Shown here: positions 22,552 through 28,299 of the stretch, piece after piece
Layout of the letters: the number at the start of each line of letters is the position of its first letter
How positions within the stretch are numbered: the stretch's first letter is position 1
Assembly: GCA_017539105.1 (NCBI GenBank)
Contig: JAFYHQ010000033.1
Location: 1 to 64,000 of the forward strand
Direction of reading: 5' to 3'
Source: Erysipelotrichaceae bacterium
Lineage (GTDB): Bacteria > Bacillota_I > Bacilli_A > Erysipelotrichales > Erysipelotrichaceae
Length of the DNA: 64,000 bases
The notes under the pieces: generated by a model
The model's database searches: none
Seen by the model: only the letters and a program-made list of their open reading frames with translations
What the model was told of the DNA's origin: nothing
Translations under genes and position numbers: made by a program

Positions 22552-22575
22552 AAAAGACGCTTACGCGTCTTTTTT
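22552..22575. terminator. Bidirectional terminator between GH13 gene and ftsZ
   Basis: AAAAGACGC and GCGTCTTTT pair around TTAC, with A residues on one side and T residues on the other, so it can work for both converging transcripts. It reaches the ftsZ stop codon. Confidence 0.85.
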
Positions 22576-23665
22576 AAATCCTGGTTTTGAAGAATGAAGG
22601 GATTTCGCCATCATCATCGTCGTTCGGGAATACCGTATCTTTTCTGCCGGTATCCTGAATCAGGACGGTATTATCGAAAGGAATGTTGTTCGGATTTCCG
22701 GAAGCGAACTTGGTATTCGGAATATCGAAACCTGTTGCGATTACGGTAACGATGATGGATTCGCCCAGAGACTCATTGATTGCGACACCGTAGATGATAT
22801 CGATATCGTTTCCTGCTGCTTCTCTGATGAAATCAACCGCAACTTTCGAATCCTGCAAAGAAATGCTCGGACCGCCGGTGACGTTGATGATCGCGGATTT
22901 CGCACCCTTGATATCTGCTTCCAGCAACGGCGAACGGATCGCGCGGGCAGAAGCTTCTTTCGCTTTATTGTCGCCCTGTGCCATACCGATACCGATCAGA
23001 GCGGTACCTTTTCCGGACATGACTGTCTTGATATCGGCAAAATCCAGATTGATGAACGCAGGAACGGCGATCAGATCGGTAATCGTCTGTACGCCCTGCC
23101 GCAGGATATTATCTGCTTCCTTGAATGCTTCCTGCATCGGAATCTTTCCGATGACATTCAGCAGCTGGTTGTTTGATACGATGATCAGTGAATCCACATA
23201 CTGACGGATCTGTTCAATTCCGACTTTGGCCTGATCCATTCTGCGCGTACCTTCAAAATCGAAAGGTTTCGTGACGATACCGACGACCAAAGCATCGATT
23301 TCTTTCGCCAGCTTTGCGAAAACCGGAGCTGCACCCGTACCGGTACCGCCGCCCATGCCGCAAGTGATGAAAACCATATCCGCACCGGACAGCGCTTTTT
23401 TTATGTCATCCTGCGATTCCAAAGCCGCTTTCTGGCCTACGACCGGATCTCCTCCGGCTCCAAGACCTTTGGTCAGCTCTCTGCCTAATACGAGTTTATT
23501 TGGACATCTGGATAGATTCAAAGACTGGATATCCGTGTTGCATACATAAAAGTCGACACCTTTGACACCATCATTGACCATACGATTGACCGCATTGCAG
23601 CCAGCACCGCCGATTCCGAATACCTTGATTCTTGCTACTTGGTTATATTCCGGTCTGATCGTCAT
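22574..23665 (-). CDS. ftsZ: Cell division protein FtsZ
   Basis: FtsZ is the tubulin-like GTPase that forms the division ring. The 363 residues contain IKVFGIGGAGCNAVNRM, the tubulin signature GGGTGTGAAPV near residue 107, RMDQAKVGIEQ, the T7-loop region NLDFADIKTVM and, at the end, DGEIPSFFKTRI, the C-terminal peptide that binds FtsA and other partners. The linker is short (about 30 residues). AAGGAGGT precedes the ATG. It directly follows ftsA in one transcript. Confidence 0.97.
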   Translation of the reverse strand: MTIRPEYNQVARIKVFGIGGAGCNAVNRMVNDGVKGVDFYVCNTDIQSLNLSRCPNKLVLGRELTKGLGAGGDPVVGQKAALESQDDIKKALSGADMVFITCGMGGGTGTGAAPVFAKLAKEIDALVVGIVTKPFDFEGTRRMDQAKVGIEQIRQYVDSLIIVSNNQLLNVIGKIPMQEAFKEADNILRQGVQTITDLIAVPAFINLDFADIKTVMSGKGTALIGIGMAQGDNKAKEASARAIRSPLLEADIKGAKSAIINVTGGPSISLQDSKVAVDFIREAAGNDIDIIYGVAINESLGESIIVTVIATGFDIPNTKFASGNPNNIPFDNTVLIQDTGRKDTVFPNDDDDGEIPSFFKTRI

Positions 23666-24925
23666 CTATATACCTCCTTTTTCAATATAATGTTTAAACA
23701 GATTCTTGATTTTCGTAGTGATCGTATCACCTTCCGAATCCAGCTGTTTCTGATCGATCAGTTCATCATACTTCAGCAGATCGATACAGGAAACATTAAG
23801 ATCATTCATCGTCGCTTTCTCGCGATATACCACAAAAGCGCCATACAACGCCGTCATGGACGCATCTCTGATACCTATTGTATCAGGAAAATACTCGCTT
23901 ATCTCACAATTGCACAATGCCTGCAGACGTTCTTTCAGACATTTCATCTGCTGTCCTTCACCGGTAAGAACGATCTTCGCTCCTGCGGAAAGGATCGGTT
24001 CGCACATTTTCATCAGCTTATCGCAATAGCTGTTCAGAGGAGCTTCGATGGCTTCATTGAGCTGCCTGTAAGTCAGTACATTGGTATTTCCCTGATCGGT
24101 CCAGGCATAGACTGCGTCATCGGGATAACGCGTATCCAGATCGGCAGCATACTTTACCAGACGTGCGATGTCCGCATACGGCATATAGTAACGGCGATAT
24201 ATATTTTCGATCATCGAATTAAGACCGTCATAGATGAGTTCCGTTGAAGCCAGACGTCCTTTCGCCAGCAGAGTCAGATAGGTGTAAGAACGATGGACAT
24301 CGATCAGTATGATATTCTGCGATACGCTTTCTTCAAACAGAGAAGCTTCTTTCGCGATTGCATAGTTGTTTAAAACGATATCCAGAACCTTGATTCCGCT
24401 TTCTTCGATCACGGAAACGTATTCGTAACAGATCTGCCGATCGGCACAGAGAAGATCGATATCGATGACCGCTTCCTCACCGCTTTCTTTTTCCGGCATC
24501 CTGCGGGAAGTGATTCCGTTGACGACATATTTGGTGATGCATGGATCGACGACCATGACATCCGAATCAACGACTGCGGTCAGTGAATTGGTGATCGCTC
24601 TGGCGACATCCGCTTTCTCAAGTACATTGTTTTCCAGAACGATCTTGCTCTTTAATGGAAAACGTTTGAAATTATAGGCAGGAACGATCAGGATCGCCTG
24701 TTCGATATCGGCACCGATCTTGTCGGAAGAAAGCGCAAAGGCTTTCTTGAGGTCCTGTACCATCATATTCTTATCGGCAATATGAAAATCGCTGATCGCT
24801 TTGGTTTCATAACGATCGGAACGGATTATATTGAAACGGGTATTGAAGTATTCCGCTGCCAGTATTCTTATTTCATTCTCACAGAGCTCGACAGCGACAT
24901 AAATCTGTTTGATCGACTTGCTCAT
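23666..24925 (-). CDS. ftsA: FtsA-like cell division protein lacking canonical ATP-binding motifs
   Basis: This 419-residue protein sits directly before ftsZ. The order of segments (actin fold, 1C-like domain, K-I-V-L-T-G-E-G region, P-D-x-I-G-I-R-D) and the C-terminal amphipathic helix (TKIKNLFKHYIEKGG), which would tether FtsZ to the membrane, identify it as FtsA. The phosphate-1 D-I-G-T-S loop reads VAVELCENEIRIL and the phosphate-2 D-x-G-G-G-T reads IDVHRSYTYL, so ATP binding is doubtful. The ATG at 24925 is chosen because TGCTAAAAT (hexamer 24934-24939) lies eight bases upstream, overlapping the alternative start at 24943. Confidence 0.85.
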   Translation of the reverse strand: MSKSIKQIYVAVELCENEIRILAAEYFNTRFNIIRSDRYETKAISDFHIADKNMMVQDLKKAFALSSDKIGADIEQAILIVPAYNFKRFPLKSKIVLENNVLEKADVARAITNSLTAVVDSDVMVVDPCITKYVVNGITSRRMPEKESGEEAVIDIDLLCADRQICYEYVSVIEESGIKVLDIVLNNYAIAKEASLFEESVSQNIILIDVHRSYTYLTLLAKGRLASTELIYDGLNSMIENIYRRYYMPYADIARLVKYAADLDTRYPDDAVYAWTDQGNTNVLTYRQLNEAIEAPLNSYCDKLMKMCEPILSAGAKIVLTGEGQQMKCLKERLQALCNCEISEYFPDTIGIRDASMTALYGAFVVYREKATMNDLNVSCIDLLKYDELIDQKQLDSEGDTITTKIKNLFKHYIEKGGI

Positions 24926-24968
24926 ACAAAGTAATTTTAGCATAATTGCTGTAAATTGAATAATATAT

Positions 24969-25250: not shown

Positions 25251-25898
25251 TTCGCAGCGTCGCAATCTGGCGGCGTTTTCTTTTATGTTTCCGTTGAATA
25301 CGAATGATCCCGCAACCAGCGCATCGGCGCCGCTGCTGATGATATCATGGGCATTCTGGTCGTTGACTCCCCCATCGATCTCGATGATGTAATCGAGGCC
25401 ATGCTCTTCTTTGTACTTTTTCAGGAAACGGATACGATCATACGCTTCTTCCATGAATTTCTGTCCTCCGAAACCCGGTTCGACAGACATCAGAAGGAAG
25501 ATATCGATCTTATCCAGCAACGGTATGATTTCTTCGATCGCGGTTCCAGGTTTGATCGAGATCCCTGCTTTCAGGTACATGCCATGGATCTTGTCGATCA
25601 AGGCGATACACTTGTCGATATCGCGATATGCCTCATAATGAAAAACGATGCTGTCGGCACCCGCTTTCGCGAAGACATCGCTGAAAAAATCCGGGTCATC
25701 GACCATCAGATGCACATCCATAAACAGATCCGTATTGCGACGGAACGCTTTCAGGATATCGGGACCGAACGTCAGATTGGGAACGAAGTGTCCATCCATC
25801 ACATCGAAATGGATCCATTCGACGTTTTCATTCAGCTGTTTCAGTTCGTTCATGAAATCATCATAATGCATAGATAATACCGATGGCGCCAGGATCAT
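25248..25898 (-). CDS. rpe: Ribulose-phosphate 3-epimerase
   Basis: Rpe interconverts ribulose-5-phosphate and xylulose-5-phosphate in the pentose phosphate pathway. This 216-residue TIM barrel has APSVLSMHYDDF, IHFDVMDGHFVPNLTFGP (metal-binding His and Asp), MVDDP, MSVEPGFGGQKF and EIDGGVND followed by ALVAGSFVF. AAGGAG precedes the ATG, which overlaps the prkC stop by four bases. In many Firmicutes rsgA lies between prkC and rpe; here it does not. Confidence 0.95.
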   Translation of the reverse strand: MILAPSVLSMHYDDFMNELKQLNENVEWIHFDVMDGHFVPNLTFGPDILKAFRRNTDLFMDVHLMVDDPDFFSDVFAKAGADSIVFHYEAYRDIDKCIALIDKIHGMYLKAGISIKPGTAIEEIIPLLDKIDIFLLMSVEPGFGGQKFMEEAYDRIRFLKKYKEEHGLDYIIEIDGGVNDQNAHDIISSGADALVAGSFVFNGNIKENAARLRRCE

Positions 25899-27571
25899 GG
25901 TTCTTCTCCTTCCGGTTCTTCATGGTTCGTATAGTAATAGACCAGTACGACATCGTCGTCATCGCGGTGATAGACGCTTCCTGCTTCAGGCGACATTTTA
26001 ATGACGGTATCGACTGCGGTATCGATGATCTCTTCAGGATCGAACCAGTCCCGTTCTTTTTCGATCAGCTGATATCGGATATCGAATTCTTCAAAATACT
26101 TCTTCGCATCTTCGATATCCATGCCCATGACTTCGCGTGAAATGATGATGGAGGATTCCTGGGAATACTTCAGCGTGATTTCCGGAGGCTGGGAATTGTC
26201 ATATTTGTATCCCGCTTCCAGCGACTGTCCTACGACCGTCCCCGGTTCTTCTTTGGAATCGACAGGCAAAAGCCTGACTTTGAAATTCAGCGCTTCCAGT
26301 TCATTCTTTGCGCTTTCAAAGTTCTTGCCTATATAATTGTCCAATACGGCATAGATGCCGCTGGATACAGTCAGTTTGATCTTGCTGTTGCGTTCCACTT
26401 CTTCGCTGGCTGCAGGCGCGCTGGATATGATATGATCCTTTTCCGTCGTATCGGATAAGGTCCATACGATCCTGGAATCATCCACTTCCAGATTGTATTC
26501 TGCCAGAAGATCTTTTGCTTCCTGTACCGTCATATTCGTAACATCGGGAACGGTAACCGTCTTGCTGGAAGAACCGATCACTCCTGTAAAGAACAGCACC
26601 AGAAAGAGTACGGTAATCGAAAACAGCGATACGAAAATCAGGAATACGACGGAGAATAATGGATTTCCGTCTTTTTTTCCTTTCTTTTTCGTTTTATCGC
26701 TATCGTCATCGCTGCTTTGTGAAGAACCGATATTGATTTTCGGATCATTGAGATGGCTTTTCTTAAGACATTCATTCAGATCCTGAAGCATCAGCGCGAC
26801 GTTCTTGTATCTCTGATTCGGATTCTTTGCGGTCGCTTTGATGATGATGTTTTCAACGGATTGCGGTATGTCGCTGTTGATCTTACGTACTGACGGAATG
26901 TCTTCTTTGATGTGCTTCAGAGCGACTTGCACAGGCGTTTCCCCTTTGAATGGCACATCTCCTGTCAGCAGCTCATAGAAAACGATGCCTAACGCATAGA
27001 TATCCGCCTGCATCGTGGCTTGTTTGCCTCTGGATAATTCAGGTGCCAGATAATGAACGGAGCCTAAAACGGCATTTTTATGCGTGATCTGGCTGGAATC
27101 GTTCGCTACGGCAATACCAAAGTCGGAGAGCTTTACCGTGCCGTCGTCTTTGATCAGGACGTTCTGCGATTTCACGTCACGATGGATGACATCATTTCGG
27201 TGCGCTTCCATCAAAGCGCCGGCAAGCTGCTTGATGACCCAGACCGCTTCCTTGACCGGCAGAGGTCCCCTTTTCTGTATCAGCTGTTTCAGTGTATAAC
27301 CGCGTACATATTCCATGACGATGTAGTGCTTATCGCCATCGTCTCCGACATCATAGACATCGACGATATTCGGATGCGAAAGCTTGGTGACGGCTCCCGC
27401 TTCTCTCTTGAATCTTTCCAAAGCCAAAGGATCATCGGCCATATCCGATTTCATGATCTTGACTGCGACTTCTCTTTTTAAGATCTCATCATAAGCAAGA
27501 TAGACATCCGCCATGCCTCCCTTACCTAACAGTTTAACGATCCTGTAACGATTTCCGATATATTCCGACAT
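25895..27571 (-). CDS. prkC: PASTA-domain serine/threonine kinase PrkC
   Basis: This 558-residue membrane kinase has a cytosolic kinase domain (about 8-265) with glycine loop LGKGGMADVY, the invariant Lys in VAVKIMK, catalytic loop VIHRDVKSQN and DFGIA. A juxtamembrane Lys/Asp stretch and one membrane span (about 305-330) follow. The outer part has three PASTA repeats (each starting V-P-D-V, DNYIGKNFESA or MGMDIEDA) that sense muropeptides or lipid II. It works with PrpC in cell-wall and stationary-phase control. The ATG at 27571, five bases after AGAGG, is preferred to the GTG that overlaps the prpC stop. Confidence 0.96.
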   Translation of the reverse strand: MSEYIGNRYRIVKLLGKGGMADVYLAYDEILKREVAVKIMKSDMADDPLALERFKREAGAVTKLSHPNIVDVYDVGDDGDKHYIVMEYVRGYTLKQLIQKRGPLPVKEAVWVIKQLAGALMEAHRNDVIHRDVKSQNVLIKDDGTVKLSDFGIAVANDSSQITHKNAVLGSVHYLAPELSRGKQATMQADIYALGIVFYELLTGDVPFKGETPVQVALKHIKEDIPSVRKINSDIPQSVENIIIKATAKNPNQRYKNVALMLQDLNECLKKSHLNDPKINIGSSQSSDDDSDKTKKKGKKDGNPLFSVVFLIFVSLFSITVLFLVLFFTGVIGSSSKTVTVPDVTNMTVQEAKDLLAEYNLEVDDSRIVWTLSDTTEKDHIISSAPAASEEVERNSKIKLTVSSGIYAVLDNYIGKNFESAKNELEALNFKVRLLPVDSKEEPGTVVGQSLEAGYKYDNSQPPEITLKYSQESSIIISREVMGMDIEDAKKYFEEFDIRYQLIEKERDWFDPEEIIDTAVDTVIKMSPEAGSVYHRDDDDVVLVYYYTNHEEPEGEEP

Positions 27572-27573
27572 GG

Positions 27574-28299
27574 TCACCTCTTGAACAATATGACGGTAAT
27601 ATTGTCATAACCGCCTTTTTCTAATGAAAGATCCTTTAAACGATTCGTTTTTTCTTCCAATGTGAAATCATCATTCAGAACGATTTCAAGCATTTCTTCA
27701 TCCGAAACATAGGAATGCAGCCCATCGGAGCAGATCAGATACCGATCCATCGTTTCGATGACATGGATATCCGCAAGACAATCTTCATAGATGCCGATCG
27801 CTTTGACCAGATAGTGTTTCTTTGGATGATCGATGGCTTCTTCGTAAGTGATCCTGCCTTCCTGAAGCATCTGGTTGACGTAAGTGTCATCATTCGTCAG
27901 ACGCAGGATCTGCCCATCTTGAATGCCATAGACGCGGGAATCCCCGCAATTGATCACGACATCGCCCAAAGAAGTGATCATCACTCCTGTCAGAGTCGTT
28001 CCCATTCCTTCATATTCCGGATATTTATAAGACATCTGCAAGATATGTCTGTTGACGGCATCGATATGATATGACAGGAAACTGCGGACATCTTCGATAT
28101 CGCTGAATGGTCCGGAATCCTTGAAAATGCGTTCGAAATAAGCGACAGTCTCGATGCTTGCGACTTCTCCTGCCTTGCCTCCGCCGATGCCGTCCGCTAC
28201 CAGAAGCAAAAGATCGCCATAGGCGTTCGAAACCATCAGGTAAGCATCCTGATTCTTTTCTCTCAAGTTTCCGATATCGGTAATGGCACAATATTCCAT
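27574..28299 (-). CDS. prpC: PP2C-type protein phosphatase PrpC
   Basis: PrpC removes phosphate from PrkC and its substrates. The 241-residue PPM domain shows the metal-binding motifs DIGNLREKNQD, LLLVADGIGGGKAGE, GTTLTGV, NCGDSRVYG, ICSDGLHSY and GGYDNITVI in the usual order. TAAAAT (28306-28311), overlapping the rlmN stop codon, ends six bases before the ATG and no Shine-Dalgarno is present. A leaderless message could therefore start here, although rlmN lies only four bases upstream in the same direction. Confidence 0.96.
   Translation of the reverse strand: MEYCAITDIGNLREKNQDAYLMVSNAYGDLLLLVADGIGGGKAGEVASIETVAYFERIFKDSGPFSDIEDVRSFLSYHIDAVNRHILQMSYKYPEYEGMGTTLTGVMITSLGDVVINCGDSRVYGIQDGQILRLTNDDTYVNQMLQEGRITYEEAIDHPKKHYLVKAIGIYEDCLADIHVIETMDRYLICSDGLHSYVSDEEMLEIVLNDDFTLEEKTNRLKDLSLEKGGYDNITVILFKR

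Follow-up and report, generated by a model that had tools for sequence, protein, structure and literature searches.

FtsA with altered ATP-binding motifs in the Erysipelotrichaceae, a candidate nucleotide-independent anchor for FtsZ

The window analysed here (the whole stretch of 64,000 nucleotides at the start of an Erysipelotrichaceae contig) carries an intact ftsA orthologue on its minus strand (24925..23666 in the list of open reading frames, encoding 419 residues; an alternative start is possible at 24943), and the plus strand of the same interval is interrupted by stops. The TAG of ftsA is followed immediately by the ATG of ftsZ (23665..22574, minus strand; TIGR00065, E = 3.9e-122), as had been proposed in an earlier note on this DNA that placed the gene directly before ftsZ, and FtsZ retains its C-terminal peptide (DGEIPSFFKTRI, with the end IPSFFKTRI). 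An in-frame TAG in some relatives was considered as a possible stop reassignment and rejected for the genus, in which TAG is the ordinary ftsA stop at the ftsZ junction. The interval 25895-28299, upstream of ftsA, holds a Ser/Thr kinase gene with PASTA domains and, next to it, a gene that seems to resemble the usual phosphatase partner of such a kinase. The nearest named record found is a 90% identical protein in Erysipelotrichaceae bacterium isolate RGIG2833 from goat omasum.

An extended −10 promoter-like element (TGCTAAAAT, 24934..24942, minus strand) ends 8 nt upstream of the ftsA ATG, a spacing that is conserved in the genus. At 26 of 27 ftsA loci of the window's genus the ATG is preceded by a −10-like hexamer whose end lies 5-9 nt away, exactly 8 nt at 19 of them, as counted with no shuffled control. 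No Shine-Dalgarno-like string precedes ftsA at any of these 27 loci; such a string is found in 62 of 71 other family members and in 23 of 24 members of the sister family. From these upstream regions, the ftsA mRNA is probably leaderless in the window's genus.

The encoded protein is FtsA by descent, by gene order and by its match to FtsA structures. A profile of the clade searched against the PDB found S. aureus FtsA as its best match (E = 9e-40 and 4.8e-39); FtsA accounted for the first six of nine matches, and PilM was the next family (E = 2.8e-8). The alignment includes a stretch that lines up with the IC region, the subdomain that FtsA has where actin has IB. The protein resembles the FtsAs of S. 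aureus (PDB 3WQT/3WQU) and E. coli in gene order before ftsZ, in length and in its C-terminal amphipathic stretch, and its match to known FtsA spans most of the protein and is ungapped through the motif segments. It differs from them in the absence of the phosphate-1 G-S/T and the adenosine G-G and in its scores: it reaches 65.2 bits (E = 5.6e-18) against TIGR01174, the curated NCBIfam FtsA model, under the cut-off of 175.85, and no Pfam family matches it at E-values up to 1, neither FtsA nor the SepF domain PF04472. Eight of the 24 sister-family FtsAs likewise fall under the TIGR01174 cut-off. With neither the ATP motifs nor the curated score of FtsA, the window protein is, at the level of sequence, a variant rather than an ordinary FtsA.

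The membrane-targeting helix that the earlier note had ascribed to the protein was recovered as a predicted amphipathic C terminus (residues 401-415; 23681..23725, minus strand), which is probably membrane-targeting. The segments KIKNLFKHYIE (net charge +2) and ITTKIKNLFKH (net charge +3) each have a hydrophobic moment of 0.61 and rank 7 and 9 among 409 windows, and T-x-K-I-K-x-L-F is kept in most rows of the genus. Because six internal windows outrank the C terminus, the helix call rests on position and conservation. A scan of viral contigs found no relative of this FtsA. The note had also raised the matter of a second ftsA or a sepF; we found no second ftsA in the window's own genome, which is 89% complete, and two copies of SepF, with frames of 121 and 140 residues.

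The phosphate-1 loop of the window protein (residues 13-20, ELCENEIR; 24866..24889, minus strand) is in register with E14-A21 of E. coli FtsA (EIGTAKVA), with S. aureus FtsA and with the DIGSAT-type loops of the sister family; it keeps the acid (E13, equivalent to E. coli E14) and has lost G16 and T17 of the E. coli loop. The phosphate-2 loop (residues 209-216, DVHRSYTY; 24278..24301, minus strand) is in register with E. coli D210-D217 (DIGGGTMD) and keeps D209, equivalent to D210. The adenosine motif (residues 321-324, TGEG; 23954..23965, minus strand) is in register with E. coli T335-A338 (TGGA) and keeps the first glycine. We considered whether the motifs might merely have shifted and rejected this: the three motif segments are ungapped in all 97 family rows that have the altered pocket, and the sole [DE]xG[STN] in the window protein lies at residue 277, which is no alternative motif. 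The absence of both gaps and an alternative motif indicates that the motifs were replaced in register and not displaced. The earlier statement that phosphate loops 1 and 2 lack D-I-G-T and D-x-G-G-G-T is therefore correct.

D-x-G-G-G-T is too strict, though, as a criterion for ATP binding. The phosphate-2 loops of the sister family and of S. aureus FtsA (DIGEDVT) are also unlike it, which indicates that FtsA tolerates change in this pocket, and there is a crystal structure of the S. aureus protein with ATP (PDB 3WQU; PMC5508204), so the absence of GGG from phosphate loop 2 is not by itself evidence. The informative changes in the sequence are those at the phosphate-1 G-T and the second adenosine G, and they support the interpretation that the pocket would no longer hold ATP in the usual way.

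The window's family, which we took to be the NCBI Erysipelotrichaceae, was represented by 98 FtsA sequences, one per genome, covering 54 genera; these were set against 24 from 15 of the 20 genera of its sister family and against E. coli. The window's genus contributed 27 of its 28 matching genomes (one with a split ftsA, G020 locus L028, was dropped) and the other genera one to a few genomes each. Four further genera stand outside the 54: g66 and g70 (no match), g39 (unreadable) and g73 (a weak partial match). Genomes G079 and G097, listed as 98-99% complete, yielded no FtsA, FtsZ, SepF or DnaK-sized frames and were counted as unreadable rather than as absences; the MreB model found DnaK-sized frames in the other 44 genomes of the same search. 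Defined as [DE]xG[ST], an intact phosphate-1 motif occurs in one of 98 family rows versus all 24 sampled sister-family rows, and the counts for the adenosine G-G are the same (1/98 versus 24/24). Both exceptions are a single genome (G091, genus g37, locus L091), and the remaining 97 rows have neither motif.

Among those 97 rows, the position of T17 is acidic in 88 and that of K19 in 91, and the position of G337 is never G (78 rows have E or D there); four rows retain Gly at the G16 position. Charge is reversed at the D210 position in 24 rows from 17 genera (Lys or Arg) and at the E14 position in four (Lys). The E. coli mutants D210A and E14R are reported neither to complement nor to form rings; the D210A protein could not be purified, and the rate of ATP hydrolysis by FtsA(E14R) was down by only 39% (PMC10213515). 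A change of charge in phosphate loop 1 does not, then, abolish ATP use on its own.

These comparisons bear on the possibility that ATP is still bound through altered contacts and that FtsA polymerises and cycles as usual. The window protein keeps E13 and D209, most rows retain G322 and G324, the S. aureus protein took up ATP in crystals despite a phosphate-2 loop without GGG, and the E14R mutant of E. coli retains a good part of its ATPase activity. On the other hand, 97 of the 98 rows have another pair at the phosphate-1 G-T/S, usually a small residue and an acid, the second adenosine G is replaced in equally many, and the phosphate-2 acid has become basic in about a quarter of them (24/97). 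Taken together, we regard continued ATP binding as fairly unlikely.

Across the rest of the class, where 40 hand-picked loci were taken from 39 of 137 matching genomes (296 searched), the phosphate-1 motif is intact in 2 of 15 rows of family f8, none of four of f19, none of three of f10 and all seven of f12. The change in the pocket is thus not unique to the window's family. The altered loops seen in f10 (L158, L162, L164), f19 (L160, L175, L176, L191) and f8, such as EISEYS and EITS, are perhaps independent cases. Of the families represented by more than one or two rows, the window's was the only one in which both motifs were found to be lost together across the family. Our literature search, which covered titles and the beginnings of abstracts and left most subscription journals outside its coverage, returned nothing on an FtsA whose ATP site had been lost.

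A quick IQ-TREE phylogeny with SH-aLRT support was computed from 139 of the 163 rows, with the three motif segments removed and with 17 genus rows, six near-copies and one short row left out. Support was 99 for the family together with G091 and 95 for the rest of the family without G091, which makes this intact lineage sister to the rest, so that a single loss after the split from G091 is the simplest account within the family. One ancestral loss, shared by nearly all of the family, is likely. Next outside the family plus G091 comes f10 (support 85), and its altered phosphate-1 loop implies either two or more changes of this loop or a reversion in G091. One class-level genome, G521 of family f22, was placed inside the window's family. 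This genome has 8% contamination and two FtsA copies (L169 and L170) with identical motif segments, one of which was included in the tree; the copies are perhaps foreign contigs in the bin.

A further possibility is that the gene is decaying, with FtsA having become dispensable once SepF took over. SepF is indeed widespread: 60 of 61 relatives have it, and the window's genome has it twice. However, dN/dS is low, at 0.049-0.097 in ten pairs from the family and 0.035-0.046 in four from the sister family (three rows were used in two pairs each, and one of 15 pairs was dropped for saturated dS), and ftsA is present in all 36 relatives with completeness of at least 90% and contamination of at most 5%. 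The lack of a match in 8 of 36 genus genomes looks like assembly gaps rather than true loss of FtsA: six of the eight are without ftsZ as well, ftsZ is only partial in G007, and the G031 stretch stops just before ftsZ, which we took for a contig end. SepF is, moreover, equally present beside intact FtsA, and we saw no link between SepF and the altered pocket that would make it a replacement for FtsA. We therefore rejected a decaying gene, which in light of the low dN/dS is very improbable.

The replaced phosphate-1 loop has itself become conserved. In a count over 52 genera, with the window's genus and g37 set aside, Glu occupies residue 18 in 51 (where the sister family has Thr or Ser), Arg residue 20 in 49 (sister family: Lys), Glu residue 13 in 47 (sister family: Asp), Asp residue 16 in 42 (sister family: Ser) and His residue 17 in 30. 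R30 (45/52), N136 (45/52) and D157 (47/52) are newly conserved as well. The window's genus is looser, with Glu at residue 18 in 22 of 27 rows, Glu (19) or Asp (7) at residue 16, Asn (17) or Ser (5) at residue 17, and Lys in place of the first phosphate-1 acid in four. Purifying selection together with newly conserved loop residues, which likewise argue against decay, points to functional remodelling.

Two further readings concern the new loop. The pocket might have been re-purposed, with the E-x-A-D-H-E loop forming a new site that takes a metal ion or some other ligand; few parts of the family proteins are as well conserved as this loop, with its E18, D16 and H17, but the His has mostly given way to Asn or Ser in the window's genus, the first acid is not constant there either, and there is no candidate for a ligand. 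We consider a new binding site improbable. Alternatively, and as a special case of the explanation we favour below, FtsA might polymerise constitutively without nucleotide, with the acidic loop mimicking phosphate and locking the protein in the ATP-like, filament-forming state. The acids in place of the phosphate-1 residues and the new conservation of R20, R30, N136 and D157 in the family are consistent with constitutive polymerisation, which we put forward tentatively as a possibility.

We also examined the proteins with which FtsA may share its role. SepF is a link between FtsZ and the membrane that works without ATP, and it is a small protein unrelated to the FtsA described here. It is found in 43 of 46 sampled family genomes, the misses being the two unreadable entries and G133. 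The two SepF genes of the window's genome lie at C27:70126-70335 and C6:18415-18630 (genome G000), and several relatives in the genus carry second copies too. EzrA is present in the window's genome and in 58 of 61 relatives. Given that the whole of FtsA, the IC-aligned stretch and the C-terminal helix included, is under purifying selection and has new loop residues, and that two SepFs and EzrA stand beside it, FtsA has not simply turned into a substitute for SepF. From these sequence data, the window FtsA most likely continues to connect FtsZ with the membrane, sharing that task with one or two other linkers.

The actin homolog MreB has a narrower pattern of loss. The MreB model matched 22 of 24 sister-family genomes at E-values of 1e-140 or lower (the exceptions being G057 and G059). 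The search found no MreB in any genome of the window's genus (G000-G035, 36 in all), some of which are incomplete; the best match there (E = 1.2e-21) is a 613-residue, DnaK-sized frame, the other matches are also DnaK-sized frames, four genomes have no match, and the short frames in G018, G024 and G030 were taken for cut DnaK-type genes. In the 44 readable family genomes from other genera, classed by E-value and frame length, MreB is clear in 24, divergent in five, partial in one and absent from 14. Loss of the FtsA pocket is thus broader than loss of MreB, and it is probably also the older of the two.

Other proteins provide partial parallels. The cytoplasmic domains of GspL and BfpC are not known to bind nucleotide. 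Together with PilM, to which they are structurally similar (PMC4471445), these are parts of type IV pilus and type II secretion systems, unlike the division protein of the window. In M. genitalium, the gene MG_223 precedes ftsZ in a four-gene cluster (PMC8475190). Its product and MPN316, the corresponding Mycoplasma entry, differ from the window FtsA in being an uncharacterised protein of wall-less cells, and the NCBIfam match to the window protein is weak and not significant (E = 0.03).

The explanation we favour, with somewhat more confidence than doubt, is that the window encodes a nucleotide-independent FtsA that still anchors FtsZ and that descends from an ATP-binding FtsA through a probable single loss in the family ancestor; the loss of ATP binding, the conformation fixed by the loop and the role as adaptor are the parts of it that we infer. 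The ancestor would have had an ordinary ATP-binding FtsA, from which the only FtsA found in the window's genome descends. In what was probably a single event, in the common ancestor of almost the whole family, D-I-G-S in phosphate loop 1 would have given way to the E-I-A-D-H-E type and G-E would have replaced the adenosine G-G, placing carboxylates where the phosphates of ATP sit in other FtsAs. ATP would then most likely be neither needed nor bound, and the acidic loop might hold the cleft in one state, so that the protein could serve as an adaptor joining FtsZ to the membrane and the divisome, alongside SepF and EzrA. Counting against this nucleotide-independent FtsA, E13, D209 and the first adenosine Gly are all kept in the window protein, which makes some residual nucleotide binding possible.

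In E. coli, the role of ATP in FtsA has been read from active-site mutants, several of which fail in the cell (PMC10213515). The Erysipelotrichaceae offer a natural experiment on the same question, with a probable single loss near the family's base that is found in 53 genera. Controls are at hand in the intact sister lineage G091, whose FtsA would make a good control protein, and in the intact sister family, and the conserved replacement loop could be transferred into a laboratory FtsA. More speculatively, the family may divide with a nucleotide-free pseudo-actin in which the acidic phosphate-1 loop mimics phosphate and fixes one working state; the window's genus, in which no MreB was found among 36 genomes, would then have no actin of the FtsA or MreB type that uses ATP, leaving FtsZ as the sole nucleotide-driven filament among FtsZ, FtsA and MreB. 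If a nucleotide-independent FtsA is indeed what these genes encode, ATP cycling by FtsA would not be required for division in these bacteria, which would bear on models in which FtsA polymerisation is the switch of the divisome.
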